From Eunapius fragilis (lineage: Eukaryota > Porifera > Demospongiae > Spongillida > Spongillidae), in the NCBI GenBank assembly GCA_963681505.1, contig OY811973.1, forward strand, positions 7,108,673 to 7,172,672: 64,000 nucleotides of DNA. The letters are read 5' to 3'. Both the position numbers and the translations under genes were made by a program. The notes beneath the pieces were generated by a model. The model did not search any database and was not told the DNA's origin. It saw only the letters and a program-made list of their open reading frames with translations. Below are positions 16,702 to 53,560 of the stretch, one piece after another (position 1 is the stretch's first letter; the number at the start of each line of letters is the position of its first letter).

Positions 16702-18366
16702 ACAAGTACTGGTGCACAAGTTAAGAACACCAAATTCTGCACTATTGCTGAATTGAAATTGCTTACTACCCAAAAAAGAGTATCTATTGCTGAAGAGCGA
16801 GCAATGACTGCTGAAAGAAGAGCCATTATTGCAGAAGAGAGAGCTGCCACTGCTGAGGAAACTGCATCTGTCCTTGAGAAGACAGCTGCTAGTGCTGAAG
16901 AGAGAGCCATTGGAGCAGAAAGGAGAGCTACTAGTTGTGAAGAAAGTAAAAAAGTTGCAGAAAGCAGAGCCACCATGTATGAAGAGAGAGCCATTTCAGC
17001 TGAGGCAAGAGCTGCATCAGCTGAACAGGGAGCCACTGAAGCTCTACAGAGAACCATTGCAGCTGAGGGCAAAGCCACATCAGCTGAACAGAGAGCCATG
17101 ATAGCTGAAAAGGAGTGTGCTATCACAAAAGAACGATTGTCTGATGCTTTTAAACAAGTCACTGTGGCTGAAGAGAATGCCACAACAGCACAGAGGAGGG
17201 CCAGTATTGCAGAGGACAGAGCTACTGTTTCCAATAAGAAAGCCATTACAGATGAGAAGCGAGCAAACGTAGCAGAAGAACGAGCTACTGCAGCAGAGAA
17301 GAGGGCCTCTGTAGCAGAGGAGAGGGCCAAAGTAGCAGAAATGGAGGTTACTGCTGCTGTCATGAAGGCAACAGCTGCTGATACCAGAGCAAAAGGTTTG
17401 GAAGAGAGAACCAATCAAGCTGAAGGTGCAGTGAAAATGTTGCAAGAAAGTGCACACATATCTGATATCAGAATGGTAGTGCTTGTGCAAACAAATAGAG
17501 CTCTGGAGGACAGGACCACAAGAGCAGAGCAGCAGATCCAGGACCTGACCATGCAGTGCAGACAGCTACAAGACCAGCTTGACAAAGCCACTACACCATC
17601 ATGGCTTGTAAAGAAAGGTGATATTGTTCTGATGGATAAAGAGCTAGGCAGAGGAGGATGGGGTGTGGTGAAGGTAGCAAGGTACTGTGGACTTGAAGTA
17701 GCTGCTAAGCTCCTTCATGGTACAATCCTATCTCCTCACAACGAGCAGCTGTTCAAGAGAGAAATGAATATATCGGCACTGGTACGTCATCCAAACATAC
17801 TACTATTGATCGGAGCCACTTTGGATCAGCCATGTGTCATCCTCACAGAGCTGATGCACACCTCTCTAAGGGCAGTCCTAGAGGATAAGGTGCTGAAAAA
17901 GGTAACCCTCTCCCATCAGCAGGTATCCACTATAGCCATTGATGTGGGTAGAGCCCTGAATTATCTGCATTTAATGAAACCAGATGCCATCATCCACAGA
18001 GATGTAAGCAGCAGCAATGTGCTCCTTGATCCACTGGGAGGAGACATGTGGAAGGCCAAGTTGTCAGACTTTGGGTCGTCCAACTTTGCACGTCAGGTGA
18101 CCACTGTGGGCCCTGGAAATTACAGCTATGCAGCTCCTGAGAGCTCTGATCCTTCCCTGCAATCTCCCAAAATGGATGTGTTTAGCTATGGCATTCTTCT
18201 GTTGGAAATGGCAAGTGGTCAGTTTCCAGAAGTGCAAAAGAGGCTAGATGTAATGAAAAGGCTCCAGTGGTCAGCAATGAAGACATTGATTGAGCAGTGC
18301 ACAGCAAGGAGTCCAGGTGATCGTCCTAACATTGCTGATGTACTTATGAAACTTCCTATAGCTTAG
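16702..18366 (+). CDS. Last exon of kinase gene I: heptad coiled coil plus TKL-like protein kinase
   Basis: Acceptor TTCTCCAG ends at 16701; the exon runs 554 codons to TAG. Residues about 25-295 are a long coiled coil of AEERAxx heptads. A kinase domain follows from about residue 305: GRGGWGVV glycine loop, beta-3 lysine in VAAK (codon 336), HRDVSSSN catalytic loop (codons 432-439), DFG (codons 456-458), and an APE-like AAPES. All residues needed for phosphotransfer are present; the usual HRDxK lysine is serine, as in several TKL-like kinases. The protein is probably a cytosolic serine/threonine (or dual) kinase recruited through its ankyrin repeats and oligomerised by the coil. Compared with gene II the coil has three extra heptads. 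Upstream exons splice in phase 0. Confidence 0.9.
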   Translation, partial: TSTGAQVKNTKFCTIAELKLLTTQKRVSIAEERAMTAERRAIIAEERAATAEETASVLEKTAASAEERAIGAERRATSCEESKKVAESRATMYEERAISAEARAASAEQGATEALQRTIAAEGKATSAEQRAMIAEKECAITKERLSDAFKQVTVAEENATTAQRRASIAEDRATVSNKKAITDEKRANVAEERATAAEKRASVAEERAKVAEMEVTAAVMKATAADTRAKGLEERTNQAEGAVKMLQESAHISDIRMVVLVQTNRALEDRTTRAEQQIQDLTMQCRQLQDQLDKATTPSWLVKKGDIVLMDKELGRGGWGVVKVARYCGLEVAAKLLHGTILSPHNEQLFKREMNISALVRHPNILLLIGATLDQPCVILTELMHTSLRAVLEDKVLKKVTLSHQQVSTIAIDVGRALNYLHLMKPDAIIHRDVSSSNVLLDPLGGDMWKAKLSDFGSSNFARQVTTVGPGNYSYAAPESSDPSLQSPKMDVFSYGILLLEMASGQFPEVQKRLDVMKRLQWSAMKTLIEQCTARSPGDRPNIADVLMKLPIA

Positions 18367-33440: not shown

Positions 33441-33445
33441 TGAAA

Positions 33446-35612: not shown

Positions 35613-35834
35613 ATAGTTGCTATCGTAAGGATATGATAGTCTGGCAGTATTAATGAGACAAAAGAATTGGTTTTGTCCTCATGCTTGTAGTTTCCATGCT
35701 CATTGCCACTAGATTTTGTTCCATCTGATGTGAATGTGAACAACAATCAGTGCATTGTTTAATTCCGCATGTTGTCACCTCATTGATGCATGTGTATTGC
35801 ACTGCTTTTCTATACCCTCACCTTCCATATGTAG

Positions 35835-35918
35835 GTGACACCACTGTATGTGGCAGCTCAAAATGGTCATACAGCTGTGGTGGAGATCCTTGTAAAGGCA
35901 GGAGCTGATGTGAACAAA
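35835..35918 (+). CDS. Ankyrin-repeat exon, kinase gene II
   Basis: The 84-bp exon encodes TPLYVAAQNGHTAVVEILV then KAGADVNK. Acceptor CATATGTAG ends at 35834 and donor GTGAGTG starts at 35919; phase 0. It is the only recognised copy in gene II of the exon that occurs three times in gene I. Confidence 0.85.
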
Positions 35919-36924
35919 GTGAGTGATGTAGGGTGTGGTGAAGTACTAACAACCAGAAGAAGAAGGGTTGATCCAAATACATTGTATTGATTGTCTTGCA
36001 TCAATGCAAGGTGCTATCTTGCATATTGTCTAGTCCATGCCATGTACATGTACATGCTGGGGGTATAGAACATTAGTGGTATTTGTAATGAGGAGAGTAG
36101 TTTGTATGTAGAGTGGTCTAAAAGTAGTAATGGGGAGGTGGTGACTGCATATCAACTGCTGCTATGGGAAGAACGGACATGTTTATTCATGTATTAATAA
36201 CATTTTTATGGGAATGTCATATGCAAGAAAGAATATAATCTATTGGTATGAAGTGTTGAATTAGTTCATGTTTGTGGACAGTCATGATTGTGTGCTTTGT
36301 AGAATGATCTAAAAGTAGCAATGTGGAGATGGTGACTATCATCTGGTTTAAAAACAACTGTAGGTTATGTTAATCAATGTGTACTTGCTTTTTTATTCAG
36401 CACATTGAACATGGAATCGACTATGACCTACCGCATATTATAAAAAAATGTATCACCATTGTATTGGCATGATTATTCAAGCTTCATTGATAACCTACGC
36501 CCACATAACATCACATGAGTGTATTTGGATTAGTACACTACAACAATGCCACGTGATTTAAGCCGTAAACATGGTATGGATAATTCAAGCTTGACAACCA
36601 TGGCAATGTCACGTGGTCATGCTAGAGCTCTATCTATATGTTTATGTCGACTGGTTCAATTTGCATGTGCGTACGCGGGGGGGGGGGGGGGGGGGGGGAG
36701 TTTCTTTCTCCCTCAAATGGTCTCCTTTACCATACCGTACTGAAGCGGATAATTCAGGGCCTGAAGCGTACAGCACCCCCTCACCCCAACCCACCACCCA
36801 CCGCTGTTCATATAGGGCCCTTTTCGTATCGCAGGTTCCCCCTTCTCAAGTATTCTACATGTATATCCGCCCCTGCCGTATGATGCATGTATGTATTGTA
36901 AGGTCACCTATTAACTAAATTCGA
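35919..36924 (+). other. Intron of gene II with poly-G tract
   Basis: Matches 6362-7640. A run of about 22 Gs at 36677-36698 corresponds to a shorter interrupted run in unit 1. The glycine-rich frames around it come from the tract. No exon is recognised. Confidence 0.45.
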
Positions 36925-37043
36925 TGTGTAACACAACTGATACATGTACGAGTTTTGAAGGTGGTGATGGTGGCTATGATAGTGACGAGTGCAGTGATGA
37001 TGGTGAAAGTAGAGGTGGTAGGCCTGCTGAGTCTCCCACATTT
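36925..37043 (+). repeat. Single remaining arm of the acidic inverted duplication
   Basis: Encodes FEGGDGGYDSDECSDDGE then SRGGRPAESPTF, matching both arms of 7651-8107. The first 60 bases of the arm and the entire second arm are missing. Confidence 0.55.
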
Positions 37044-37324
37044 TTATTTTGATCCGTTCACTTATGTTACAAATAAGAATACAACATAGATATGCAAGGC
37101 AAATATACATTTAAGGTAAACCACCTTTCATGATCCACTAACTGAGGTCCCTTACTGATTGATCCTTCGAATGCTTTTATTACCATAACCTGGAAACTCT
37201 GCTAGGTATCCAACACCTCTGCCCATCTTTATCTACCGTTATTATCAAACTTATTGTGATAATACTGTAGATGGAGGCATGTTGATCCAGCATGCTCTCA
37301 GTTTTTTTGTTTCTACAACTGATT

Positions 37325-37447
37325 CCAGGCCCATAGCCAGAGGGGGTTCGTAACCAAGGAAACCCTTAAAATAGCTAGTGTAATCTGATGTTACTAACTA
37401 TCTTAAGGGTTTCCTTGGTTACGAACCCCCTCTGACTACAGCCCTGG
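37325..37447. mobile_element. Palindromic MITE, orthologue of 8850-8971
   Basis: The same palindrome at the same position relative to the ankyrin exon, with ends CCAGGCCCATAGCCAGAG and CTCTGACTACAGCCCTGG. Confidence 0.75.
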
Positions 37448-37850
37448 ATTCATGACCTTCACAAAGCTGAAAGATGTCTGCAGCTTCTGCAATGTCACAA
37501 CAGATAGCACGGCTCTTCTGAACATCCTACCTAGCAACATAGTGGTTAAAGACAGTACACCTCCTTTGGGGCTATTAGAGAGCTGTTGTAGGACGGTTTA
37601 AGTGTAGACATCTGCTTATGATGCTGGGTAGTAAACAGTGTTATTACCAACAGAGAAACTCTCCAGGACTCATATGCTTCTCTTTATAAAAGTTGGAACG
37701 TTTGATGAGGCAATGGTGGAACAATTATACATGTAGCCCAACCTGGAAGAGCAAATTTGCATTCCCAATTGTTGCTGAATGCTATCTATCATCAATGTAA
37801 CTATAACTGTATTTTATTTAGAGATATATTATTGTGTTATCTCTTCCTAG

Positions 37851-37955
37851 CCCTGTGATGGGTCCACTCCACTGCACATGGCTGCTGAGAAGGGTCACCA
37901 TGAAGTGGTGGCAGTCCTGGTGGCATATAATGCTGACACTACCATAAAGAATAAG
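37851..37955 (+). CDS. Ankyrin-repeat exon, kinase gene II (last full repeat)
   Basis: The 105-bp exon encodes PCDGSTPLHMAAEKGHHEVV then AVLVAYNADTTIKNK. Acceptor CTTCCTAG ends at 37850 and donor GTACTT starts at 37956; phase 0. It differs from gene I (9357) at one residue (P for T at the first position). Confidence 0.85.
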
Positions 37956-38253
37956 GTACTTAATTTTCACAATGTGTGCAATAACTTCATCACTATGGAT
38001 GTACCTAAATTCTCTACTGCCTGTTTCTTAACTTTATTGATCTTAAATTATATGCATTACCACATTGTTCACATGGATCAAAAGCACATAATGTGGAAAT
38101 TGACACAAATAGCATTATTCCATACATACCAGGTGGACATGCACAATGCATACATGGCACCACTGAGTACTATAGAAGTCATGGTCCTAATATGTACCAT
38201 CACAAGTGAATTTTCGTGTGCGACATATTAGGATCAACTTGTATTTCATGTAG

Positions 38254-38322
38254 GAAAAAAAGACGGCCTTTGATTTAATGATAAATAAATATCAACAAGA
38301 GCTTTCTCTATTATTTTCAAAG
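38254..38322 (+). CDS. Ankyrin C-cap exon, kinase gene II
   Basis: The 69-bp exon encodes EKKTAFDLMINKYQQELSLL then FSK. Acceptor ATGTAG ends at 38253 and donor GTAAGTAAG starts at 38323; phase 0. The next in-phase exon is either the minisatellite-fused one (41499) or the kinase exon (42427). Confidence 0.8.
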
Positions 38323-38704
38323 GTAAGTAAGCATTCCTGTATTTTTTTATTATTCATTATAAGAAGTACATGTACATGTATTTGAAATACTGTAGTTATC
38401 AAATGTAGATAGTCTGCATGAATGAAATTTATGCATGTCCTCCGCTTATAAAACTGATAGTTATATATTTAAATTAGAGACATTGCACGAAAAAAATAAC
38501 CTTCTTGTTTATTAATATAAAGTCATAAAAATGATTCACTTTATAATCGCTGCATGGTAAACGCTACTGACTTCCCATTTTCAACACTTCATACTACATG
38601 GAAAAATACATTTTGGGGTTTAGCATTAGCTTTGTGCCAATGTTATAATGTCCGATGCACCGTGGGGTTCATACCCACCATAGAAGTGTAAAATGCAAGG
38701 AGAA

Positions 38705-38870
38705 ATGACTGTCTGTAATAGTAAGGGAAAATGTGATAAGTCTTATACGAACATTGTATAGGCTATAAATGGGCTAAATATAGGACTACCACATTTTCAC
38801 CCTTTACTTCCTTCTTTAAATCCATTATATCACCATCTTCTCATAGAGAATGTTTTTAGTTACCTGCATA
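38705..38870. mobile_element. Partial foldback MITE of the 14014 family
   Basis: GGGAAAATGTGATAAGTC and the right end CATAGAGAATGTTTTTAGTT are recognisable; the left terminal repeat is missing. Confidence 0.5.
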
Positions 38871-38969
38871 ATGCACCTATTGGTTTATATGAAGAAGGGG
38901 TCATGTATACCTATTGATTTGCTCAGTTCGTTAATTTTTATGCCACCCAAAACAAAGATCCCCTCCCTC

Positions 38970-39375
38970 CCTCCCTCCCCATGGTGATGGCTGTACCACT
39001 CACCCTATGGACCCCTCCCTCCCCCATGGTGATGGCTGTACCACTCACCCTATGGACCCCTCCCTCCCCCATGGTGATGGGTGTACCACTCACCCTATGG
39101 ACCCCTCCCTCCCATGGTGATTGCTGTACCACTCACCCTATGGACCCCTCCCTCCCTTATGATGATGGTTATACCACTCACACTATGGACCCCTCCCTCA
39201 CCATGGTGATGGCTGAAACACTCACCCTACGGACCCCTCCCTCTCCCCATGGTAATGGCTGTAACACTCACCCTACGGACCCCTCCCTCCCCCATGGTGA
39301 TGGCTGTACCACTGACTCTATGGACCCCTCCCTCCCCATGGTGATGGCTGTACGACTCACCCTATGGACCCCCCA
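38970..39375. repeat. 45-bp minisatellite, about 9 copies
   Basis: Same unit as 11660-13525 but with more sequence variation. Here it is not attached to an exon start; the exon-attached array of gene II is at 41570. Confidence 0.9.
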
Positions 39376-39799
39376 ACTGCATGTTTGCAACCAGTACATG
39401 CTTGTGTTTTTATAGCCTCCACTACATGGATCTGTCTTTTTAGGGACGGATTGGTAGGTGGGGCCATAAATATTAAAGTGTGTGTGTGCATGTACATTAT
39501 GTGTGTGTGTGCATGTGTGCAAGCACAACGATAATGTAACAGCCTTCCGATTAAACCATTATTTATGAAAGGTGGCATGTACAGATTTTAGTAGCATATA
39601 ATTTTTTGTGATGTGCAGCTAGACTAGACAAGTACTGGTACATTTAGTATTGTTTTCAATTTCTCTATATAATGGAAGACTTTCATCTAGAGGTACATGT
39701 AGTGACTGTGAATATTAACATTGTGGGCCACTGTATGTTCTAAGCATATTCTACAATGGAACACACATGTGCATACACACACACACGCAAACACACACA

Positions 39800-39843
<44 letters not shown>

Positions 39844-40507
39844 ATAGGGTCATGTAAATATGAAGCCATGTGTGTGAGTACCCTCAACATAAACTTTCCA
39901 GAGGCCCAGTCCTTATGCATCTCTGAGATAGGGTTGCAGTAATATTCACTGCCCCTATACATGACACATCACAAATTGCAAGGCCTCCCAGAAGTGTTGT
40001 TCATTGCAAGCATCAGTGTGTTCATTGCAAGCATTAGTGTGTTCATTGCCCCAGTCTCCATTACATGGCTATTCAAAGAGGAGGCATACATGCATACATG
40101 TAGTGGTACATGTGGGACTAATTGCAACCACTTTCAAAGCATGCTCAAAATGGCTCACTACCATGTATAATGCCATACACACATGCACACACACACACAC
40201 AACACACCACGCACACACGCACACACGCATGTGCACACACATGCACGCATACGCACACACACACACACAGGGTAGGGAGTATGACATGCAGGTGAAACGA
40301 AAATATAGTGAGTGGTTAATACAACTGTGCGTGCAGAACGTAAATCCCACCAATGTAACAAGAAATGTTGCTTTGCAGCCCAACCGTGGTCGACCACGCC
40401 TCCACTACCGACTATGGATCTGAAGTGCTAATATAGCGTTGTGCGCCAATCAATGGCCGTGCAAGGGGTGGTACGCAAAGAGTTTCACTGAACTGACAGG
40501 CAGACAA
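39376..40507 (+). other. Intron of gene II with two CA arrays
   Basis: 39385-40000 matches 14305-14900 and 15590-15700 of gene I in rearranged order. CA microsatellites lie at 39776-39842 and 40180-40270. A three-copy short repeat (GTGTTCATTGCAAGCATTA) is at 40000-40045. No exon is recognised. Confidence 0.45.
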
Positions 40508-40738
40508 TTATGATACATGATGTTGCTTATGCACATAACTGCTAGTACGTACCGTATCAAGTACGTAAGGCGATGGCAGCTCAGTTCCATTTAGATTGCT
40601 TACAATTGCTATTGTTCGATATAGTAGTTGGTCAACAAATAATGCGACTTGAAGTGAAATCCTATTTGTTTTATGGATCACTATCTGGGCGTCATAAGGT
40701 ATGGCACGTGAAGTTCTTGCATATTCAATGAGAGACAT
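40508..40738 (-). CDS. Hypothetical minus-strand first exon inside gene II intron
   Basis: An open frame begins MSLIEYARTSRAIPYDAQIV, continues LQVALFVDQLLYRTIAIV and reaches SPYVLDT, where a strong donor (ACG/GTACGTAC at about 40560) occurs. Composition looks coding rather than repetitive. Nothing similar is present in unit 1. No domain is recognised and no following exon was found. Confidence 0.3.
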   Translation of the reverse strand: MSLIEYARTSRAIPYDAQIVIHKTNRISLQVALFVDQLLYRTIAIVSNLNGTELPSPYVLDTVRTSSYVHKQHHVS

Positions 40739-41498
40739 GATTCATGTCTTAGAGTATTAACGGGAACCAGGTTGTAATAGGTGAATGATGCAAAATGATC
40801 AAAAAATGTGCAATTACTTTTCACAGCTGTATTTCCGTAATGGATAAAGTAAAAATTAACGACCAGGACAAATCAATAGGTACAGGATCCCTCTGAGTTT
40901 TAACCAAATCAGTAAACTGGATTTTTCTGCAGAAAGATATGCCGGGTTTGAACCCCTAGGGGTATCGAACATTGCATCACTGGCATGAAGCAAATGCAAG
41001 ATGCCAGCATCTTTTTTACCATACGAAATAGTGTTGTATATGATGTGTGGGAAATAGGAAGTCAGTAACGTTTACGGTTCAGGAGATGTAGTGATTTTAA
41101 AGTGGACCAATTTTATAACTTTATATATGGGATGGTGTCTAGCAAAATCACCCTTGTGGACAGTTTTTCAAGTTTCAAAGATTTTCATTTCTAAGAGCTT
41201 ATATCAAATGGTCCTTACGCATCCTAAATTGGACTCAGTATCCATCATAACGTTATTAGGCACTGAATTTATAACTAGCCATATATTTTAATGCGAGCGT
41301 TTCTTGTCCTGGAAAGTTTGATAAAAAGCATGATAAGGGTGATTTTGCTGGACTCTGTTCCATATATTCATAGCCGTACAATATATTATGTAAAGGATAT
41401 TTTTCTCGTGAACTGTTCCATTCTGCCATCCTGAAGTAATGCACATTTTGATGCATTTGTATGGAACATTGATAGCTGATTAATATTTCATTCTCCAG

Positions 41499-41768
41499 AT
41501 AAGTACTGGTGCACAAGTTCAGAGCACCAGAATCTGGACTGTAGCTGAGTTAAAATTGCTTACTACCCGTCTAGATGGTGATGGTTGTACCACTCACCCT
41601 ATGGACCCCTCCCTCCCCCATGGTGATGACTGTACCACTTACCCAATGGACCCCTCCCTCCCCCATGGTAACCTATGGACCCCTCCCTCCCCCATGGTGA
41701 TGGCTGTACCACTGACTCTATGGACCCCTCCCTCCCCCATGGTGATGGCTGTACCAGTCACCCTATGA
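41499..41768 (+). CDS. Coiled-coil exon start fused to 45-bp minisatellite, gene II
   Basis: After acceptor TTCTCCAG (ends 41498) the frame reads ISTGAQVQSTRIWTVAELKL then LTTRLDGDGCTTHPMDPSLP, and continues through about five minisatellite units to a stop at 41766. It is the sister of 11590. The fusion therefore predates the unit duplication and has stayed open in both genes. It may be an alternative last exon or a relic. Confidence 0.5.
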   Translation: MSTGAQVQSTRIWTVAELKLLTTRLDGDGCTTHPMDPSLPHGDDCTTYPMDPSLPHGNLWTPPSPMVMAVPLTLWTPPSPMVMAVPVTL

Positions 41769-42039
41769 ATGATCGTGTTGTTCATTTATCTAGACCTTTG
41801 CCTAAGGGAAGCAGTGCATTTCTGAACACTAATGTACCTCCCTATTTTGAGTCATGCTATGCATGCATCCTTGTACTAGCAAACGCAAGACGCCAACTTT
41901 TTTTATCAAACGAAATGGTGTAGTATGATGTGTGGACATTAGGAAGTCTGTAGAATTTACAGTTCAGGAGATGTAGCAATTTTAAAGTGGACCAATTTTA
42001 TAACTTTATATATGGGATGGTGGCCAGTAAAATCACATT

Positions 42040-42195
42040 TGTGGATTCGACGTGGTCGGCGACCGCGAATATTACCATAGTATGCGGCTATGGCCTATCT
42101 TACGGTGAGCATAATGGGCACATCGTAGATGCCGCACCGTAGGTGGAGTGCCAGGATGACCCGCCTATGGCCAGTATCTGCTTCAGGGTCATTTC
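42040..42195. other. GC-rich insert of unknown origin
   Basis: Between sequence matching 16340 and 16490 lies a block of about 155 bp, CGACGTGGTCGGCGACCGCG to GCTTCAGGGTCATT, with higher GC and several short palindromes. It is missing from unit 1. No coding or known repeat signature. Confidence 0.35.
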
Positions 42196-42426
42196 AATGC
42201 AAGAGTTACTTTTTTTTGCTTGTCCTGGAAAGTTTGATAAAAATCATCATATGGGTGATTTTACTGGACACTGTTCCATATAGTCATAGCCGTACAATAT
42301 AACATAATGATATGTACGAAGGATATTTTTGTGAACTGTCCTATTCTGCCATTATTTTCTGAGGTTATGCACATTTTAACACATTTGTATGGAACATTAA
42401 AAGCTGATTAATATTTCATTCTCCAG

Positions 42427-44949
42427 ACAAGTACTGGTGCACAAGTTCAGAGCACCAAAATCTGCACTGTTGCTGAATTGAAATTGCTTACCACTCAAAA
42501 AAGAGTATCTGTTGCTGAAGAGCGAGCAATGACTGCTGAAAGAAGAGCCATTATTGCAGAAGAGAGAGCTGCCACTGCTGAGGAAACTGCATCTGTCCTT
42601 GAGAAGACAGCTGCTAATGCTGAAGAGAGAGCCATTGGAGCAGAAAGGAGAGCTACTAGTCGTGAAGAAAGTAAAAGAGTTGCAGAAAGCAGAGCCACCA
42701 TATATGAAGAGAGAGCCATTTCAGCTGAGGCAAGAGCTGCATTGGCTGAACAGAGAGCCACAATAGCTGAAAAGGAGTGTGCTATCACAAAAGAACGATT
42801 GTCTGATGCTTTTAAACAAGTCACTGTGGCTGAAGAGAATGCCACAATAGCACAGAGGAGGGCCTGTATTGCAGAGGACAGAGCTACTGTTTCCAATAAG
42901 AAAGCCATTACAGATGAGAAGAGAGCAAATGTAGCAGAAGAACGAGCTACTGCAGCAGAGAAGAGGGCCTCTGTAGCAGAGGAGAGGGCCAATGTAGCAG
43001 AAATGGAGGTTACTGCTGCTGTCATGAAAGCAACAGCTGCTGATACCAGAGTAAAAGGTTTGGAAGAGAGAACCAATCAAGCTGAAGGTGCAGTGAAAAC
43101 GTTGCAAGAAAGTGCACGCATATCTGATATCAGAATGGCAGAACTTGTGCAAACAAATAGAGGTCTGGAGGACAGGGCCACAAGAGCAGAGCAGCAGATC
43201 CAGGACCTCACCATGCAGTGCAGACAGCTACAAGAGCAGCTTGACAAAGCCACTACACCATCATGGCTTGTAAAGAAAGGTGATATTGTACTGATGGATA
43301 AAGAGCTAGGCAGAGGAGGATGGGGTGTGGTGCAGGTAGCAAGGTACTGTGGACTTGAAGTGGCTGCTAAGCTCCTTCATGGTAAAATCCTATCTCCTCA
43401 CAACGAGCAGCTGTTCAAGAGAGAAATGAATATATCGGCACTGGTACGTCATCCAAACATACTACTATTCATCGGAGCCACTTTAGATCAGCCATGTGTC
43501 ATCCTCACAGAGCTGATGCACACCTCTCTAAGGGCAGTCCTAGAGGATAAGGTGCTGAAAAAGGTAGCCCTCTCCCATCAGCAGGTATCCACTATAGCCA
43601 TTGATGTGGGTAGGGCCCTGAATTATCTGCATTTAATGAAACCAGATGCCATCATCCACAGAGATGTAAGCAGCAGCAACGTGCTCCTTGATCCACTGGG
43701 AGGAGACATGTGGAAGGCCAAGTTGTCAGACTTTGGGTCATCCAACTTTGCACGTCTGGTGACTACTGTGGGCCCTGGAAATTACAGCTATGCAGCTCCC
43801 GAGAGCCTAGATCCTTCCCTGCAATCTCCCAAAATGGATGTGTTTAGCTATGGCATTCTTCTGTTGGAAATGGCAAGTGGTCAGTTTCCAGAAATGCAAA
43901 AGAGGCTAGATGTAATGAAAAGACTCCAGTGGTCAGCAATGAAGACATTGATTGAGCAGTGCACAGCAAGGAGTCCAGGTGATCGTCCTAACATTGCTGA
44001 TGTACTTGGTGTTGTGAAAAAATTGCAAGAAAGTGCACACATATCTGATATCAGAATGGCAGAGCTTGTGCAAACAAATAGAGCTTTGGAGGACAGGGCC
44101 ACAAGAGCAGAGCAGCAGATCCAGGACCTGACCATGCAGTGCAGACAGCTACAAGAGCAGCTTGACAAAGCCACTACACCATCATGGCTTGTAAAGAAAG
44201 GTGATATTGTTCTGATGGATAAAGAGCTAGGCAGAGGAGCATGGGGTGTGGTGAAGGTAGCAAGGTACTGTGGACTTGAAGTGGCTGCTATGTTCTTTCA
44301 TGATGCCATCCTATATCCTTACAATGAGCAGGTGTTCAAGAGAGAAATGAATATATCGGCACTGGTACGTCATCCAAACATACTACTATTCATCGGAGCC
44401 ACCTTGGATCAGCCATGTGTCATCCTCACAGAGCTGATGCACACCTCTCTAAGGGCAGTCCTAGAGGATAAGGTGCTGAAAAAGGTAACCCTCTCCCATC
44501 AGCAGGTATCCACTATAGCCGTTGATGTGGGTAGGGCCCTGAATTATCTGCATTTAATGAAACCAGATGCCATCATCCACCGAGATGTAAGCAGCAGCAA
44601 CGTGCTCCTTGATCCACTGGGAGGAGACATGTGGAAGGCCAAGTTGTCAGACTTTGGGTCGTCCAACTTTGAACGTCTGGTGATTACAATGGGCCCTGGA
44701 AATTACAACTATGCAGCTCCCGAGAGCCTAGATCCTTCCCTGCAATCTCCCAAAATGGATGTGTTTAGCTATGGCATTCTTCTGTTGGAAATGGCAAGTG
44801 GTCAGTTTCCAGATGTGCAAAAGAGGCAAGATGTAATAAAATGGCTCCGGTGGTCAGCAATGAAGACATTGATTGAGCAGTGCACAGCAAGGAGTCCAAG
44901 TGATCGTCCTAACATTGCTGATGTACTTATGAAACGTCCTATAGCTTAG
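42427..44949 (+). CDS. Last exon of kinase gene II: coiled coil, kinase, then a second kinase domain lacking the beta-3 lysine
   Basis: After acceptor TTCTCCAG (ends 42426) the exon runs 840 codons to TAG. It encodes the AEERAxx coiled coil (three heptads shorter than gene I), kinase 1 with VAAK (Lys codon 315), HRDVSSSN and DFG, then ADVLGVVKKL and a second copy of the last coil segment and kinase. The repeat distance is 921 bp (ttgcaagaaag at 43102 and 44023), exactly 307 codons, so the duplication is in frame. In kinase 2 the glycine loop is GRGAWGVV and the beta-3 lysine is Met (VAAMFFHD, codon 622), while HRD and DFG remain. Kinase 2 is therefore a probable pseudokinase. With upstream exons the protein would be about 960 residues. 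Confidence 0.9.
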   Translation, partial: TSTGAQVQSTKICTVAELKLLTTQKRVSVAEERAMTAERRAIIAEERAATAEETASVLEKTAANAEERAIGAERRATSREESKRVAESRATIYEERAISAEARAALAEQRATIAEKECAITKERLSDAFKQVTVAEENATIAQRRACIAEDRATVSNKKAITDEKRANVAEERATAAEKRASVAEERANVAEMEVTAAVMKATAADTRVKGLEERTNQAEGAVKTLQESARISDIRMAELVQTNRGLEDRATRAEQQIQDLTMQCRQLQEQLDKATTPSWLVKKGDIVLMDKELGRGGWGVVQVARYCGLEVAAKLLHGKILSPHNEQLFKREMNISALVRHPNILLFIGATLDQPCVILTELMHTSLRAVLEDKVLKKVALSHQQVSTIAIDVGRALNYLHLMKPDAIIHRDVSSSNVLLDPLGGDMWKAKLSDFGSSNFARLVTTVGPGNYSYAAPESLDPSLQSPKMDVFSYGILLLEMASGQFPEMQKRLDVMKRLQWSAMKTLIEQCTARSPGDRPNIADVLGVVKKLQESAHISDIRMAELVQTNRALEDRATRAEQQIQDLTMQCRQLQEQLDKATTPSWLVKKGDIVLMDKELGRGAWGVVKVARYCGLEVAAMFFHDAILYPYNEQVFKREMNISALVRHPNILLFIGATLDQPCVILTELMHTSLRAVLEDKVLKKVTLSHQQVSTIAVDVGRALNYLHLMKPDAIIHRDVSSSNVLLDPLGGDMWKAKLSDFGSSNFERLVITMGPGNYNYAAPESLDPSLQSPKMDVFSYGILLLEMASGQFPDVQKRQDVIKWLRWSAMKTLIEQCTARSPSDRPNIADVLMKRPIA

Positions 44950-44983: not shown

Positions 44984-45890
44984 ACTGAGAGTGGTGTTGT
45001 CATTTATTTGATATGCTACATGTATTATAGTGATATATATATATATTTTAATTATTTTTTTCCAACTACATTAAACTAAATGATAACACAAAACTCATAC
45101 AACAAAACTCTTCATCATCACTGTCCACCTTCATTATCACCAACATGAATATTGAATTGCCTTTTAAGGAACTCAGTTGTCATTGGTCCAAAGTAATGTT
45201 AATATAAATTTTGATCGCAACAAAGATGAGAATATCAAAATATAAGTAATGTACTTACAGGTCATTGTAGCTGGTTGCCACAGACTGCCTGTACCCATTC
45301 CTATTTGTACTGCACATTAGAATCTCATCCTCTTTCTCCTCCCTCTTAAGCGTTCTTGCTGACACACTCTGTTTTTCAAACAAGCTAGCTGAGTATGTAG
45401 AACCAGTTGTGGCTCCCTAAGAGCATGGTGGTAAGTCATCTATCCCTCCTCCCTGCTGGCTGGTTTTCCAAATGAGCTAGCTGAATATGAGGAAATGGGC
45501 TGTGGCACTTGCAGACATGGTGAGGTGTCCTCCATCTTTGGTCACTCTCCAAGTGTGTCTCCCTCAGGACATGGTAGGTCTTGGGTCTTTTGGTGTGTTA
45601 TGGGGCTAATGGTTTAGTTGTGTAAGGATGAAACGAGTGGGTGGTGGTCTGGAGGTCTGCTATATGTTTAGGAGGGTACCTTTTTATTTTGCATGTCCCT
45701 TGTTCTGTGTTTGTATGCATGTATGCATACGTATGTACATGTTTGCCCATATAATGTACATGTGTGTGTTTGTGTGTTTAGATGTTATGCTAATAGTGGA
45801 GTGTGGGGTGTGTGGTGACGTATATGATTGTGTGTAAAGTGTACCCTCTTTTAATTCTCTTCACTTCCCTCCCCTTCTTGGTAAGGTGCT
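44984..45890. other. Intergenic spacer after gene II
   Basis: Matches 18401-19400 with small deletions. No gene is seen. It ends where unit 1 has the transglutaminase exon 19401, which is replaced here by minisatellites. Confidence 0.5.
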
Positions 45891-45990
45891 GCATGTGGAG
45901 GGTAAGGTGCTACATGTGGAGGGTAAGGGGCTACATGTGGAGGGTAAGGTGCTACATGTGGAGGGTAAGGTGCTACGTGTGGAGGGTTGA
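45891..45990. repeat. 22-bp minisatellite, about 5 copies
   Basis: The unit GGTAAGGTGCTACATGTGGA plus GG has a donor-like GGTAAGG in every copy. Confidence 0.85.
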
Positions 45991-46084
45991 TTAAGCTACT
46001 CTCTCAGTACAGGAGCAATAAGTGCTCAGTGAAGTATGGGCAGTGTTGGGTGTCCTCTGGTGTACTGACCACATGTGAGCGAAG

Positions 46085-46868
46085 GGATGGTATATGAGTG
46101 GGGGGATGAACTAAGGGTATGGGGTGAGGGGATGAACTAAGGGTACGGGGTGAGGGGATGAACTAAGGGTATGGGGTGAGGGGATGAACTAAGGGTATGG
46201 GGTGATGGGATGAACTAAGGGTATGGGGTGAGGGGATGAACTAAGGGTATGGGGTGAGGGGATGAACTAAGGGTATGGGGTGAGGGGATGAACTAAGGGT
46301 ATGGGGTGATGGGATGAACTAAGGGTATGGGGTGAGGGGATGAACTAAGGGTATGGGGTGAGGGGATGAACTAAGGGTATGGGGTGAGAGGATGAACTAA
46401 GGGTATGGGGTGAGGGGATTAACTAAGGGTATGGGGTGAGGGGATGAACTAAGGGTATGGGGTGAGGGGATGAACTAAGGGTATGGGGTGAGGGGAAGAA
46501 CTAAGGGTATGGGGGTGAAGGGATGAACTAAGGGTATGGGGTAAGGGGATGAACTAAGGGTATGAGGTGAGGGGAAGAACTAAGGGTATGGGATGAGGGG
46601 ATGAACTAAGGATATGGGGTGAGGGATGAACTAAGGGTATGGGGTGAGTGGATGAACTAAGGGTATGGGGTGTGGGGATGAACTAAGGGTGTGGGGTGAG
46701 GGGATGAACTACGAGTATTGGTGAGGGGATGAACTAAGGGTATGGGGTGTGGGGATGAACTAAGAGTATGGGGTGAGAGGATGAACTAAAGGTATGGAGG
46801 AGGGGATGAACTAAGGGTATATAGGGTGAGGGGATGAACTAAGGGTATGGGGTGAGGGGATGAACTAA
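46085..46868. repeat. 26-bp minisatellite (first kind), about 30 copies
   Basis: The unit is GGGTATGGGGTGAGGGGATG then AACTAA. It ends 20 bp before a transglutaminase core exon and occupies the position where the active-site exon would be expected. Each unit has a donor-like GGGGTGAGGG. Confidence 0.95.
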
Positions 46869-46888
46869 TCTGACCCTCCTTCCCACAG

Positions 46889-47019
46889 TCCTGCGCTCCA
46901 TAGGTATCCCCACCTGCTCAGTTACCATATATGGCTCTGCCTGCTCATCCATTGGGAAAAACATCGTTCAGTTTTTTTACTGAAGATGGTAGAGAGGTCC
47001 CCAGTCCTACTTCTGTCTG
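46889..47019 (+). pseudogene. Transglutaminase core exon following the active-site exon
   Basis: Acceptor CCCACAG ends at 46888. The exon reads (V)LRSIGIPTCSVTIYGSAC, GKNIVQFF and, after one base shift, TEDGREVPSPTSVW. It matches the family segment VLRxLGIPTRxVTNxxSAHD ... SVW. The conserved Asn, Ala, His and Asp are altered (IYGSACSS). A run of seven Ts at 46972-46978 shifts the frame; six would keep it. Donor GTTAGT starts at 47020. Confidence 0.7.
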
Positions 47020-47247
47020 GTTAGTCACTAATGTCTATGTGATCTTCTAACTCCTCCACTGACCCTCCAGTATCTCCTCCACTGTCCCCTCCACTATCTC
47101 CTCCACTGTCCCTCCACTATCTCCTCCACTGTCCCCTCCACTGTCTCCTCCACTGTCCCCTCCACGATCACTTATGCAATCTATCATCCTCTAATCCATA
47201 TGTGGCTGTCATGTGACCTACCATGTGGATGTCATGTGACCTACCAG

Positions 47248-47570
47248 GCAGTATGACGTTTTGAATGAGGTCTACCTAGTGCGCCCAGACCTACCCAACT
47301 GGCAGGTGTTGGATGCCTCACCTCACCCCAGTGGGAGGAGTCAGGAGCAAGGGGCGTGCCCTTGGGTTCCGCCCCACAGCTGGCCGTGAAGAGGGGTCTT
47401 GGAATGAAGTACAACGTGGAGAGGGTGGTCGGTGTGCTGGGAGGTTCAGTGTACTGCTACTTGCTCCACGGGGACAAGAGGTTGAGCCTTGCAGACGTAG
47501 ACCCATCTCTTGTCGGCAGGAAGGTGTGTACCAAGGCTGTGGGAGGGGGTGTGGCCCATCAGTTGAAGTT
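47248..47570 (+). pseudogene. Transglutaminase core exon, RPDL..W region
   Basis: Acceptor CTACCAG ends at 47247; the first base completes the split Trp codon of the previous exon. It reads NEVYLVRPDLPNWQVLDASP, then after a frame slip near 47352 VPLGSAPQLAVKRGLGMKYN, and ends VDPSLVGRKVCTKAVGGG. It matches NxVWMxRPDLxxGYxGWQVLDATPQ ... GPxxVxAIKEG...KYD ... LVGxxISTKAVG. The catalytic His-containing HVW is replaced (YDVLN). The 3' end is uncertain: AAG/GTGTGT at 47522 is a possible donor. Clearly transglutaminase-derived but unlikely to be active. Confidence 0.7.
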
Positions 47571-47870
47571 AAAAGAAAATTTCCATTTGGGTTTCATCAC
47601 ACAGAATCAACTGGAGAGCTGTTGTGGTCAGTACATGGGTATGGCTTCTGAATATAGCCTTCTTTCCTGTCAGGTTCATTGTCACCACAGCAGCTGACAT
47701 CCTCCATTTTTTTGTATGTCTATGCATGTACTTCCACACATGTGATGAGGTATATGTACCTATGCATGTACTTACACACATGTGATGAGGTATATGTACC
47801 TATGCATGTACTAATGTGATGAGGTATATGTGTATATGCACACTCGTTTCATTTTTCCCCTCCTCCCCAG
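47571..47870. other. Spacer with 41-bp minisatellite
   Basis: Positions 47715-47830 hold about three copies of a unit with TGCATGTACTTACACACATG and TGATGAGGTATATGTACCTA. It ends in the pyrimidine tract of the FAF2 acceptor. Confidence 0.6.
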
Positions 47871-48001
47871 TCCACCTAGTATTTGGCTACCAGCCGGCTC
47901 CTGCCCAAAACCCTACAGGGGATGTGATGCAGTTTGTAACGGAGTTTGAGAATGAGTTTGGCCCCGCCCACCCTCCCTTCCTGACCTGCAGCTACAGCCA
48001 G
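47871..48001 (+). pseudogene. FAF2: FAF2 exon, start of UAS domain
   Basis: Acceptor CTCCCCAG ends at 47870. It encodes HLVFGYQPAPAQNPTGDVMQ then FVTEFENEFGPAHPPFLTCS and YSQ. This aligns with human FAF2 PVGDVVSFMHSFEEKYGRAH then PVFYQGTYSQ. The UAS domain is a thioredoxin-like fold that senses unsaturated fatty acids. Donor GTGAGG starts at 48002. The exon itself is intact; it is called a relic because later UAS exons are missing. Confidence 0.8.
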
Positions 48002-48141
48002 GTGAGGGGGCGGGGCATGAGGGCAGCTGGGGTGGGGGCGTGGTGGGGAGGGAAGCTGGGAGGGGGTGGAGAAAGATTAAGCTGAGAGGGGCGGGGCAGG
48101 AATTACAGCCTGCTCACTCATTGTCCTTACCTCTTCCATAG

Positions 48142-48227
48142 GCTCTGGACCAAGCTAAACAGGACCTCAGGTTTCTGTTGGTATACCTTCACTCACCTGG
48201 TCACCAGGACACATTCCAGTTCTGCAT
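48142..48227 (+). pseudogene. FAF2: FAF2 exon, UAS domain continuation
   Basis: Acceptor TCCATAG ends at 48141. It encodes ALDQAKQDLRFLLVYLHSPG then HQDTFQFC, an excellent match to FAF2 ALNDAKRELRFLLVYLHGDD then HQDSDEFC. Donor GTGAGTC starts at 48228. The next FAF2 segment (the RNTLCAPEVI ... VVGRLEG part of UAS) was not found before the following exon. Confidence 0.85.
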
Positions 48228-48329
48228 GTGAGTCAGTCGTGTGTCACATGATTGGTCCATTGTCATGTGATTAATGAGCTGTGGGTCACATGATTTGGCA
48301 GTAGCTGATGACATGGCCTTTAGAGTGTC

Positions 48330-48556
48330 ACATGATCAGTGTACATGGTCAGGTGGTCAAGTACATGGTCAGGTGGTTAGTGTACATGGTGAGGTGATCA
48401 ATGTACATGTACATGTACATGATCAGGTGGTCTGGGTACATGGTCAGGTGGTCTGGATACATGGTGAGGTGGTTAGTGTACACGGTCATGTGATCAGTGT
48501 ACATGTTCAGGTGGTCAAGTGCATGGTCATGTGGTCAGGGTACATGGTCAGGCGGT
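48330..48556. repeat. About 19-bp minisatellite (GTACATGGTCAGGTGGTCA)
   Basis: About 11-12 degenerate copies fill the interval where the missing UAS exon(s) of FAF2 would be expected and run directly into the next exon, leaving no clear acceptor. Confidence 0.85.
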
Positions 48557-48641
48557 CAAGTCCCCTGAGAGAGCTGATAGCCAGACTGGCAGTGGCCGTG
48601 CGAATGAATGAGGCGGAGCTGGTGGTGGAGAGGAACGAGAG
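48557..48641 (+). pseudogene. FAF2: FAF2 exon after UAS, helical linker
   Basis: Reads SPLRELIARLAVAVRMNEAE then LVVERNER, aligning with FAF2 INQLTFIMDANQTYLVSERL then EREER. Donor GTAAGG starts at 48642, and its phase (AG/G) matches the exon at 53732. The 5' boundary is lost in the minisatellite. Confidence 0.7.
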
Positions 48642-48890
48642 GTAAGGGTCTGGGGAGGAGGTGCGAATGAGGCAGAGCTGGTGGTGGAGAGGAATGAGAG
48701 GTGAGGGTCTGGGGAGGAGGGGCAAATGAGGCAGAGCTGGTGGTGAAGAGGTGAGGGCCTGGGGAGGAGGTGCGAATGAGGCAGAGCTGGTGTGGAGTAG
48801 AACGAGAGGTAAGGGTCTGGGGAGGAGGGGCAAATGAGGCGGAGCTTGTGGTGGAGAGGAACGAGAGGTGAGGCCTTGGGAGGAGGTGGT
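48607..48890. repeat. 59-bp tandem repeat of an exon/intron junction, about 5 copies
   Basis: The last 35 coding bases of the exon (AATGAGGCGGAGCTGGTGGT...GAACGAGAG), its donor and 24 intron bases are repeated. Starts are at 48607, 48666, 48725, 48775 and 48833. Donors read GTAAGG, GTGAGG, GTGAGG, GTAAGG and GTGAGG, so several equivalent 5' splice sites stand in a row. Confidence 0.85.
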
Positions 48891-50100
48891 ATCTGGGAGG
48901 ATGGGGTGGAGGTAAAGCCTGGGGTGGTGAAGGCATGGAGGAGGTAAGGCCTGGGGAAGAGATGGGCGAATGGAAGAAGATTAAGTGCAGGCAAGCCTGG
49001 GGAGGTGGAAGCCATGTAGTGGAGGCAAGCCTGGGGAAGGGAAAGCCATGGCAGCCTGGGGAGGAGGATAATGGCAGCCTTTCATGTTTATGCTCTATTT
49101 GGTACTTTCTGCTAAGTATGCTGCTGTAGAGTCCTACCGCAGTACCTTACCTATCAATCAGTAATGCCCCAAACTGAGCCTATGTGTGCTATACTGTAGG
49201 TGTGATGCAATGTTAATGATTGGTTTGGCAACAACTGGGGACAAGGGCAAGAGTATCCCACGAGCATGTGTAACGTTCCCCAACCCCCAGCTGTGGTGGC
49301 ACCAGCTAGTGCCGCTAACCACAAGCCAGGTGGCCAGTGTGGCAAGCAAGGACGCTGGTTTAGGCTTGGCTGCAAGGCCAGTATACATGTAGTTGGGAAA
49401 GCCCTCCAGCTAAGACAGGTACCAGGGTGACGCAGGCCACTAACTGGATGACCTGTGTACCAAGCCAGGACGCTGGTCCAGGCTTGGCTAGCCAGGTTAG
49501 TAGGGACAAGCCCGTAGGGCTCCGCCCTGCCAGATTGTAATTGAAATGAATAAAAAATAGCATAGTACAACACAGCAATGCACAAAGGGAGTGGAGGGAG
49601 GGAAGCGTGAACAGTCAGGGCTGTGTCTGGTGAGTAGTGCCAGGTATTGTCGTATGCATGCTATTATACCCCATTAGTTAGCACTCCTTTTGAATCTGCT
49701 AATAAAGGCAGCGCACATGATTCAGCAGCACCCCATTTGGCGGGTGCTTTACTCATGCAACTAACAAAGCGAGCCACCATTGGTACAGTAGTGAGGGAGG
49801 CGTGGTGTGAGGCTAGGCTAAGGCTTACTAATTATAAGTCTGGTGTTAAGATGTGGTTACATGAATTACTGGTGCCCATAAGCTCTGTTTAGACCTAAAC
49901 AGTACCTTAAAACTGTAGTGTGTCTCCAGCTGGAGATGGTGCAAGCATCCGCCCCCCCCATCATCCCTAACTTAAAGTGCATCTGTTTTGAAAGGCTGAC
50001 CTACAAAGGCCTTGAGTACAAACAATGGTTACTTCCTTTGAATGGTATCAATGGTAACTTGGTACCTTGTGTCCTTCATGTATTGTACACTGAAAGTGAA
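48891..50100. other. Intron of FAF2 relic, no gene seen
   Basis: Positions 48890-49080 continue as a decayed version of the junction repeat (GGAGGTAAGGCCTGGGGAAG). 49220-49500 holds two related copies of GCAAGGACGCTGGTTTAGGC-type sequence. Proline/tryptophan-rich minus-strand frames here have no recognisable domain. Confidence 0.35.
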
Positions 50101-50117
50101 AACTACTACTCATGTTC

Positions 50118-50290
50118 TATTGCCCCCATAGTCTGGGGGGGGGGGGGGGCGCATAGTCCTAGTTCTATTGCCCCCACAGTCGCGGGGGGGGGGGGGGGGT
50201 TGATAGTTCTATTGCCCCCTCATAATCCCGGGGAGGGGGGGGGGGGGGGGGGGGGAGGGGTTGATAGTTCTATTGCCCCCATAGTTGGGG
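50118..50290. repeat. G-tract tandem repeat, about 4 copies
   Basis: Units of TTCTATTGCCCCCATAGTC are followed by 10-18 Gs. Such runs can form G-quadruplexes and are prone to length error. Confidence 0.75.
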
Positions 50291-50518
50291 GGCATGGTGT
50301 CTGACTGATGATGCACTGATGTTAAGAGACATGGTGTATTTTATGTACAGTCGAACAATAGATGTGTGCACATGTGGTCAGATATTATTTCTTATGTGTC
50401 GTTATGTAATGTAAGGTTGTTTAGCCTTTAAAAGAGATGCGTGAACACCTTCTGTTCCCATCTTTATTTCTCATTCATGCCTGCCATCCCTGATAGTACA
50501 ATAATTATTTCATCAACA

Positions 50519-53500
50519 GAAGGTGGTGATGTATCCATTGTAGAAGGGTGGTGATTTAGTAATCCATTGTAGAGGAGTGGTGAAGGGTGGTGATGTAGAA
50601 CAGTGGTGAAGGGTGGTGATGTAGAACAGTGGTGAAGGGTGGTGATGTAGAACAGTGATGAAGGGTGGTGATGTAGAACAGTGATGAAGGGTGGTGATGT
50701 AGAACAGTGGTGAAGGGTGGTGATGTAGAACAGTGGTGAAGGGTGGTGATGTAGAACAGTGGTGAAGGGTGGTGATGTAGAACAGTGATGAAGGGTGGTG
50801 ATGTAGAACAGTGGTGAAGGGTGGTGATGTACAACAGTGGTGAAGGGTGGTGATGTAGAACAGTGGTGAAGGGTGGTGATGTAGAACAGGGATGAAGGGT
50901 GGTGATGTAGAACAGGGATGAAAGGTGGTGATGTAGAACAGGGATGAAGGGTGGTGATGTAGAACAGGGATGAAGGGTGGTGATGTAGAACAGTGGTGAA
51001 GGGTGGTGATGTAGAACAGTGGTGAAGGGTGGTGACGTAGAACAGTGGTGAAGGGTGGTGACGTAGAACAGTGGTGAAGGGTGGTGATGTAGAACAGTGG
51101 TGAAGGGTGGTGAAGTAGAACAGTGGTGAAGGGTGGTGATGTAGAACAGTGGTGAAGGGTGGTGATGTAGAACAGTGGTGAGGGGTGGTGATGTAGAGGA
51201 GTGGTGAAGGGTGGTGATGTAGAACAGTGGTGAAGGGTGGTGATGTAGAACTGTGGTGAAGGGTGGTGATGTAGAACAGTGGTGAAGGGTGGTGATGTAG
51301 AACAGGGATGAAGGGTGGTGATGTAGAACAGGGATGAAGGGTGGTGATGTAGAACAGGGATGAAGGGTGGTGACATAGAACAGTGGTGAAGGGTGGTGAC
51401 GTAGAACAGTGGTGAAGGGTGGTGACGTAGAACAGTGGTGAAGGGTGGTGATGTAGAACAGTGATGAAGGGTGGTGATGTAGAACAGTGATGAAGGGTGG
51501 TGATGTAGAACAGTGGTGAAGGGTGGTGATGTAGAACAGTGGTGAAGGGTGGTGATGTAGAACAGTGGTGAAGGGTGGTGATGTAGAACAGTGATGAAGG
51601 GTGGTGATGTAGAACAGTGGTGAAGGGTGGTGATGTACAACAGTGGTGAAGGGTGGTGATGTAGAACAGTGGTGAAGGGTGGTGATGTAGAACAGGGATG
51701 AAGGGTGGTGATGTAGAACAGGGATGAAAGGTGGTGATGTAGAACAGGGATGAAGGGTGGTGATGTAGAACAGGGATGAAGGGTGGTGATGTAGAACAGT
51801 GGTGAAGGGTGGTGATGTAGAACAGTGGTGAAGGGTGGTGACGTAGAACAGTGGTGAAGGGTGGTGACGTAGAACAGTGGTGAAGGGTGGTGATGTAGAA
51901 CAGTGGTGAAGGGTGGTGAAGTAGAACAGTGGTGAAGGGTGGTGATGTAGAACAGTGGTGAAGGGTGGTGATGTAGAACAGTGGTGAGGGGTGGTGATGT
52001 AGAGGAGTGGTGAAGGGTGGTGATGTAGAACAGTGGTGAAGGGTGGTGATGTAGAACTGTGGTGAAGGGTGGTGATGTAGAACAGTGGTGAAGGGTGGTG
52101 ATGTAGAACAGGGATGAAGGGTGGTGATGTAGAACAGGGATGAAGGGTGGTGATGTAGAACAGGGATGAAGGGTGGTGATGTAGAACAGTGGTGAAGGGT
52201 GGTGATGTAGAACAGTGGTGAAGGGTGGTGACGTAGAACAGTGGTGAAGGGTGGTGACGTAGAACAGTGGTGAAGGGTGGTGATGTAGAACAGTGGTGAA
52301 GGGTGGTGAAGTAGAACAGTGGTGAAGGGTGGTGATGTAGAACAGTGGTGAAGGGTGGTGATGTAGAACAGTGGTGAGGGGTGGTGATGTAGAGGAGTGG
52401 TGAAGGGTGGTGATGTAGAACAGTGGTGAAGGGTGGTGATGTAGAACTGTGGTGAAGGGTGGTGATGTAGAACAGTGGTGAAGGGTGGTGATGTAGAACA
52501 GGGATGAAGGGTGGTGATGTAGAACAGGGATGAAGGGTGGTGATGTAGAACAGGGATGAAGGGTGGTGACATAGAACAGTGGTGAAGGGTGGTGACGTAG
52601 AACAGTGGTGAAGGGTGGTGACGTAGAACAGTGGTGAAGGGTGGTGATGTAGAACAGTGGTAAAGGGTGGTGATGTAGAACAGTGATGAAGGGTGGTGAT
52701 GTAGAACAGTGGTGAAGGGTGGTGATGTAGAACAGGGATGAAGGGTGGTGATGTAGAACAGTGGTGAAGGGTGGTGATGTACAACAGTGGTGAAGGGTGG
52801 GGATGTAGAACAGGGATGAAGGGTGGTGATGTAGAACAGGGATGAAGGGTGGTGATGTAGAACAGGGATGAAGGGTGGTGATGTAGAACAGGGATGAAGG
52901 GTGGTGATGTAGAACAGTGGTGAAGGGTGGTGATGTAGAACAGGGATGAAGGGTGGTGATGTAGAACAGTGGTGAAGGGTGGTGATGTAGAACAGTGGTG
53001 AAGGGTGGTGATGTAGAACAGTGATGAAGGGTGGTGATGTAGAACAGGGATGAAAGGTGGTGATGTAGAACAGGGAAGAAGGGTGGTGATGTAGAACAGG
53101 GATGAAGGGTGATGATGTAGAACAGGGATGAAGGGTGGTGATGTAGAACAGGGATGAAGGGTGGTGATGTAGAACAGGGATGAAGGGTGGTGATGTAGAA
53201 CAGGGATGAAGGGTGGTGATGTAGAACAGGGATGAAGGGTGGTGATGTAGAACAGGGATGAAGGGTGGTGATGTAGAACAGGGATGAAGGGTGGTGATGT
53301 AGAACAGGGATGAAGGGTGGTGATGTAGAACAGGGATGAAGGGTGGGGATGTAGAACAGGGATGAAGGGTGGTGATGTAGAACAGGGATGAAGGGTGGTG
53401 ATGTAGAACAGGGATGAAGGGTGGTGATGTAGAACAGGGATGAAGGGTGGTGACGTAGAACAGTGGTGAAGGGTGGTGATGTAGAACAGTGGTGAAGGGT

Positions 53501-53560
53501 GGTGATGTAGAACAGTGGTGAAGGGTGGTGATGTAATCCATTGTAGAAGGGTGGTGATGT
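50519..53560. repeat. 26-bp minisatellite (second kind), about 117 copies, higher-order periods 806 and 390 bp
   Basis: The unit is AGGGTGGTGATGTAGAACAG then TGGTGA. Since 26 is not divisible by three, three units (78 bp) make 26 codons; the unit has no minus-strand stop in any phase, giving three overlapping minus frames of 375-1048 codons (TSPPFTTVLHHHPSPLFY), which are artefacts. The rare variant GTAGAGGAGTGG occurs at about 51195, 52001 and 52391, spaced 806 (31 units) and 390 (15 units). The variant ACAACAG at 50831 and 51637 is also 806 apart. Confidence 0.95.

Follow-up and report, generated by a model that had tools for sequence, protein, structure and literature searches.

The tandem kinase exon and its surroundings

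The window analyzed here, a 64,000 bp stretch of the genome of the sponge Eunapius fragilis (contig C3, positions 7108673-7172672), contains on its plus strand a single exon, hereinafter gene II (42427..44949), that encodes, in this order, a coiled coil, a kinase domain (K1), a short coil and a second kinase domain (K2), and ends with a stop codon. The reading frame is open over 845 codons (42412-44949, with the stop at 44947-44949), and the exon could start at 42427 because a splice acceptor AG is present at 42425-42426. A search against Pfam detected two Pkinase stretches in the single predicted protein (E = 3.5e-65 for the whole), and PK_Tyr_Ser-Thr was likewise found as two stretches; in both halves, the match runs across the N-lobe and the C-lobe, as in members of the protein kinase superfamily. 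NCBIfam yielded only weak, general kinase matches, far under the cut-off. The initial annotation, which described one exon with a coiled coil, a kinase, a short coil and another kinase, the second of them a pseudokinase within the same frame, is borne out by these observations, and the predicted product of gene II is a coiled-coil, kinase, coil, pseudokinase protein.

The outer coiled coil (42439..43086, plus strand), which is built of EERAxxAE repeats, is 63 bp shorter in gene II than in most of the copies measured; the short form recurs in two other loci, L002 and L003. Next comes a 921-bp unit in two head-to-tail copies, of which the first (43087..44007) comprises the end of the coil and K1, with the catalytic lysine, HRD and DFG all intact, and the second (44008..44928) comprises the inner coil and K2. 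The copies have exactly the same length, as had been noted at the outset, align without gaps and are 95.44% identical; the 42 differing bases fall in 37 codons, and in 27 of these the amino acid is changed. At the junction (44002..44030), the second unit has near-private bases in its codons 2 and 5. The codon for the beta-3 catalytic lysine, which is AAG in K1, is ATG (Met) in K2 (44290..44292; codon 622 counted from 42427), so that K2, having lost one catalytic motif, falls under the definition of a pseudokinase (at least one such motif lost), and it retains HRD, DFG and APE. The loss of this lysine and the persistence of HRD and DFG had both been recognized at the outset, as had the divergence of the neighboring stretch, MFFHDAILYPYNEQV, which is real: 10 changes that are derived on the K2 side are packed into 45 bp (scan test, p = 5e-5), giving a tight cluster of substitutions, the beta3-alphaC run (44291..44332). 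A search for a gene conversion donor of this run found no other match in the genome to a 36-base piece at up to 3 mismatches.

Upstream of gene II, on the same strand, lie an ankyrin-repeat exon stretch (35844..35939; Pfam Ank, frame scan) and an ankyrin-repeat exon of phase 0 that lies between an AG and a GT (37851..37955; Pfam Ank, sequence and BLAST) and is 99% identical to its gene I counterpart at 9358-9461. The phase 0 end of the latter exon at its GT agrees with the phase 0 start of the kinase exon after its AG, and ankyrin exons are probably spliced to the kinase exon of gene II, which would place ankyrin repeats in front of the coil. No FERM or SH2 match was detected by Pfam in the gene II exon or in the plus-strand frames of 33000-42410.

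Gene I (16702..18366, plus strand) is a sister exon that, as originally described, ends after a single kinase. The two genes occupy the two halves of a segmental tandem duplication of approximately 23 kb, in which about 2960-26133 is matched to 33716-57486, at 85-94% identity in most of the aligned stretches and 73-80% in some. Several repeat arrays were observed in the window. The intron that precedes the kinase exon harbors a 45-bp minisatellite (11662-13519, 41.5 copies, and 38969-39372, 9.1 copies), similar sequence being present also upstream of L002; a 33-bp array is found at 25812-28678 (87 copies, traversed by a 905-codon minus-strand frame) and at 57152-57486 (10 copies), and a 26-bp array of 115 copies with a GC skew of about 0.7 at 50568-53561. 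Stretches at 47269-48000 look transglutaminase-like by eye; Pfam searches of two of the three plus-strand frames of 45000-59400 found nothing, this region included.

The unit family and a second tandem gene

The genome (218.9 Mb in 24 contigs) is most likely that of a demosponge by its silicatein motif as well: ten places match a degenerate active-site pattern of silicatein, against none for the control pattern, and the eight translated ones look like silicatein. With an identity threshold of 90%, a DNA search of this genome detected at least 34 unit copies, a lower bound, all located on contig C3 between 4.71 and 8.76 Mb and on both strands. Thirty of these are single, that is, contain the same unit as gene II with one kinase each, and the other four make up gene II (L001) and L002, the only tandem genes found in the genome. 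In 23 of the 30 single copies, the unit contains no stop or gap, and all 23 keep the lysine, HRD and DFG, although the coil of L006, which belongs to this group, is interrupted early on by a stop; a further six carry a stop or a frameshift inside the unit, which neither second kinase does. The remaining copy, L037 (C3:5983000-5989500), resembles K2 of gene II in that the beta-3 lysine of its single kinase is replaced with Met while the kinase frame is open; it has a 9-bp in-frame gap in the kinase and a frame break in the upstream coil.

Gene II and the single-kinase ankyrin-coil-kinase copies have the HRDVSSSN signature in common. Two positions after HRD, serine occupies a site that is lysine in most Ser/Thr kinases; this holds for every one of the cluster's 34 units and for 12 of the 14 fetched distant relatives, so the activity of K1 itself is only predicted. 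The distant relatives (35-58% identity) are located on six other contigs, and each of the 14 fetched ones gave one kinase match per stretch of 4-4.5 kb. In two of them, L050 and L051 on contig C2, HRD is changed to HQH and DFG to AYG, and the family therefore includes pseudokinases with a single domain as well. A scan of viral contigs and of bacterial and archaeal genome contigs produced no confirmed relatives.

The strongest evidence, which lay outside the view of the initial annotation, is a sister gene whose second kinase is dead through other lesions. L002 (C3:7005749-7008256), located 143 kb from gene II, is open throughout and matches gene II at 91% identity across the full 836 residues. 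Its second kinase has threonine in place of the lysine (VAAT) and RFG in place of DFG and so is a pseudokinase by the same definition as K2. In both genes, the first kinase is canonical at the inspected motifs, and the second kinase contains neither an indel nor a stop. Over the 34 units, the beta-3 lysine is missing in both second kinases as opposed to one of the 32 other units, namely L037 (p = 0.005). Pfam detected no ankyrin repeats in the 5.7 kb upstream of L002; BLAST located one ankyrin exon approximately 8.6 kb upstream of the L002 exon.

The two tandem genes have in common the 921-bp period, the place of the junction, the near-private bases of the second unit (codons 2 and 5) and the coil that is shorter by 63 bp. 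Given these shared features, a single fusion in the short-coil lineage, which also includes L003 with its short coil and one kinase, appears likely, and the kinase-kinase layout most likely predates the split between gene II and L002. The description of the pair as newly born thus appears too strong, all the more so because dS values are similar for K1 and K2 (0.067), for gene I and K1 (0.060) and for gene I and K2 (0.068). Neither is K2 a simple copy of K1, as had been assumed: the unit nearest to K2 is L004 (96.5%) rather than K1 (95.4%). The 3' flank of gene II, over 1.1 kb past the stop, is 98.3% identical to that of L004, and changes in the K2 activation segment are also present in L004, L026 and, in part, L009; it follows from these similarities that sequence from single-kinase copies has since been mixed in by gene conversion or recombination. 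Sites shared by both kinases of one gene and by at most one other unit, of which there are five in L002 and one in gene II, could reflect either later homogenization or two separate duplications. A tree of the units without L034, L035 and L037, 31 in all, has 3 well-supported inner branches out of 28 and does not separate one tandem event from two; the common junction and the shorter coil favor one. The lysine could have been lost either once, with Met and Thr then one transition apart, or twice.

Retention or decay of the second kinase

The dead second domain may have been retained for a non-enzymatic job, as suggested by L002, in which the layout recurs and the second kinase is broken in another way. 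The wider reading, that K2 is kept for binding, as a regulator acting in cis, is in our assessment an even bet. Within it, the mechanism we commit to is a fused, RAF-KSR-like pair: K2, which is predicted to no longer transfer phosphate, would stay as a folded binding module and would position or restrain K1 or its substrate in cis, as KSR does beside RAF, the coils would hold the two domains together, and diversifying pressure on the surface of K2 would account for the excess of amino acid changes. The main rival is relaxed decay, whereby K2 is a redundant passenger from which the catalytic residues drift away, the frame being open by luck and youth; we consider this a serious possibility, albeit one that falls well short of an even chance.

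A relative-rate test with gene I as the outgroup assigns 29 derived changes to K2 and 12 to K1 (p = 0.012); for amino acid changes, p = 0.003, or 0.078 without the beta3-alphaC run. When the changes are polarized by gene I alone, the ratio of nonsynonymous to synonymous changes (N:S) is 24:5 in K2, which is near neutral as decay predicts, and 7:5 in K1, a difference that is not significant (p = 0.12). For the kinase part, dN/dS is 0.23 between gene I and K1, 0.63 between gene I and K2, and 0.86 between K1 and K2, and the value of 0.63, which indicates weak purifying selection of the kind that decay would give, counts against the binding reading. K1 is constrained in the tandem genes as well (dN/dS of 0.23 between gene II and L002). 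For the outer coil, the same comparison gives 0.87; this near-neutral evolution in both tandem genes speaks for decay and implies that relaxation may reach beyond K2.

Most of the changes in the activation segment that appeared to be new in K2 when gene I served as the sole polarizer turned out to be present also in L004, L026 and, in part, L009. Because polarization by gene I is misleading on this segment, we counted private changes, that is, those found in one unit only, over all 34 units. The private N:S is 23:1 in the two second kinases (18:1 in the kinase part), 7:3 in the two first kinases, 80:45 in the 23 single copies whose unit has neither a stop nor a gap, and 55:18 in the remaining seven. 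Under random change, the neutral share of nonsynonymous changes is 0.70-0.76, and the probability of at least 23 of 24 is then 0.002-0.011. The second kinases differ from the 23 copies (Fisher p = 0.0013) and weakly from the seven broken copies, in a direction that goes against decay (23 of 24 nonsynonymous compared to 55 of 73; p = 0.036, or 0.10 for the kinase part alone and 0.055 without L037, that is, with the six copies that contain a stop or frameshift). When the doubly hit DFG codon of L002 is counted once, the p values against the 23 and against the seven copies are 0.0024 and 0.037, respectively. Taken alone against the 23 copies, the second kinase of L002 (14:0) gives p = 0.005, and K2 of gene II (9:1) gives p = 0.16. 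The private changes of the former are scattered across the inner coil and the kinase, which is what decay would be expected to produce.

Measured against the 23 copies, K2 of gene II has a mean pN/pS of 0.66 and the second kinase of L002 one of 0.36; the corresponding values are 0.35 and 0.21 for the two first kinases, 0.21-0.54 for five of the seven other copies and 0.25 among the 23 copies themselves. The resemblance of the L002 value to those of the broken copies is at odds with the binding reading, and so is L037, which is not tandem and lacks the lysine yet has an open kinase frame. Decay is, moreover, common in the cluster, given that the unit is hit by a stop or frameshift in six single copies and the coil by a frameshift in a seventh, L037. 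Against decay, both second kinases are open and free of indels. With the indel rate derived from the segmental copies (35 frameshifting gaps per 365 substitutions in seven of the eight aligned stretches, some of them overlapping, the one with a poor alignment being excluded), the K2 branch of gene II should have acquired approximately 2.9 frameshifts in the absence of selection, and none is seen (chance of 0.056), although this expectation is rough because it takes all 29 changes as K2's own, which is too many given the sharing with L004. The chance of a stop on the same branch without selection is 0.61-0.68.

The other explanations fare worse. K2 could be an integrated decoy, a mimic of the kinases of the cluster that lures a factor of microbial or viral origin, K1 being the signaling half. 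A decoy model has been put forward for wheat tandem kinases in PMC8956640, and both the many young copies in one cluster and the excess of amino acid changes in the second kinases would fit it; however, nothing in this analysis ties the ankyrin-coil-kinase family to immunity, there is no known attacker, and we consider this scenario improbable. Even more doubtful is that K2 is catalytically active through another lysine, in the manner of WNK, in which, according to PMC3014569, the lysine of the VAIK motif is replaceable from subdomain I. HRD and DFG are indeed intact in the gene II copy, but its glycine loop contains no new lysine, the lysine at codon 83 of the unit is the family state rather than a compensatory change, and the second kinase of L002 lacks the DFG aspartate as well. 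An assembly artefact or a false haplotype duplication, for which one could invoke the repetitive cluster and the fact that the window is itself a segmental duplication, is very unlikely, and the least probable of all these explanations, because the junction and period recur, with different mutations, at a second locus 143 kb away, the alignment of K1 with K2 has 42 mismatches in 921 bases and no gap, and the 34 copies are spread across 4 Mb on both strands.

Comparison with known kinase-pseudokinase systems

Among proteins with solved structures (PDB), the best matches of the gene II kinases are mostly of the TKL type, namely CTR1, which is the best for both K1 and K2, MLK, TAK1 and TNNI3K; B-RAF ranks lower, among the 60 matches listed, and MKK6 and plant receptor kinases are matched too. 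The gene II kinases thus appear to be TKL-like, by best hits that are not all of this type.

The closest layout is that of the plant tandem kinase-pseudokinases, and the closest logic is that of RAF and KSR. In the plant proteins, as in gene II, the kinase comes first and the pseudokinase second within one chain. Examples are WTK1 (Yr15) and Pm24. Of a wider set of 92 such proteins, 52 have been attributed to the duplication of one kinase, and further conserved domains are reported for none (PMC6170490). Gene II is a kinase-pseudokinase tandem in the same sense but differs from these proteins in that it comes from a sponge rather than from plant kinase families and possesses coiled coils and upstream ankyrin exons, that is, further domains. 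The domains also differ in divergence: among five cloned tandem kinases covered in PMC8956640, none is reported to have domains more than 80% identical in DNA, compared to 95.4% for K1 and K2 of gene II. The similarity of layout brings up a bolder scenario, in which a single fusion created a sponge kinase-pseudokinase sensor, the animal equivalent of the tandem kinase immune receptors of plants, the dead half of which, inactivated by different lesions in the two sister genes, is under diversifying selection within a fast-turning ankyrin-coil-kinase cluster; we consider this combination unlikely, though not far-fetched.

KSR, like the second kinases of both tandem genes, lacks the beta-3 lysine. 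RAF and KSR are TKL kinases, and the best solved matches of gene II are mostly of this type. The KSR pseudokinases are described as forming complexes with RAF, whose kinase domains form side-to-side dimers close to the regulatory helix (PMC3014569). In contrast to KSR and RAF, which are separate proteins, the gene II pair is fused.

The Janus kinases resemble gene II in that a kinase and a pseudokinase are fused in one animal protein. However, in JAKs, the JH2 pseudokinase precedes the JH1 tyrosine kinase, and FERM and SH2 domains are present, whereas in gene II, the order is reversed, with the kinase first and the pseudokinase second, the best hits are of the TKL type, FERM and SH2 were not found, and the duplication is a separate one. 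The view that the order is opposite to that in JAKs and that the two layouts originated separately is accordingly supported, the solved matches being mostly TKL-type.

A search of the open-licence PMC literature found no sponge kinase-pseudokinase tandem among the matches listed. Gene II adds a variant to the known kinase-pseudokinase tandems and is well suited to observing how a pseudokinase originates: with a pair of domains that are 95% identical, two sister genes that differ in their lesions and 30 single-kinase controls, the early steps from a duplicated enzyme to a possible regulator can be traced directly in gene II and L002. These genes would add an animal, non-JAK case of a layout known from plant resistance proteins.
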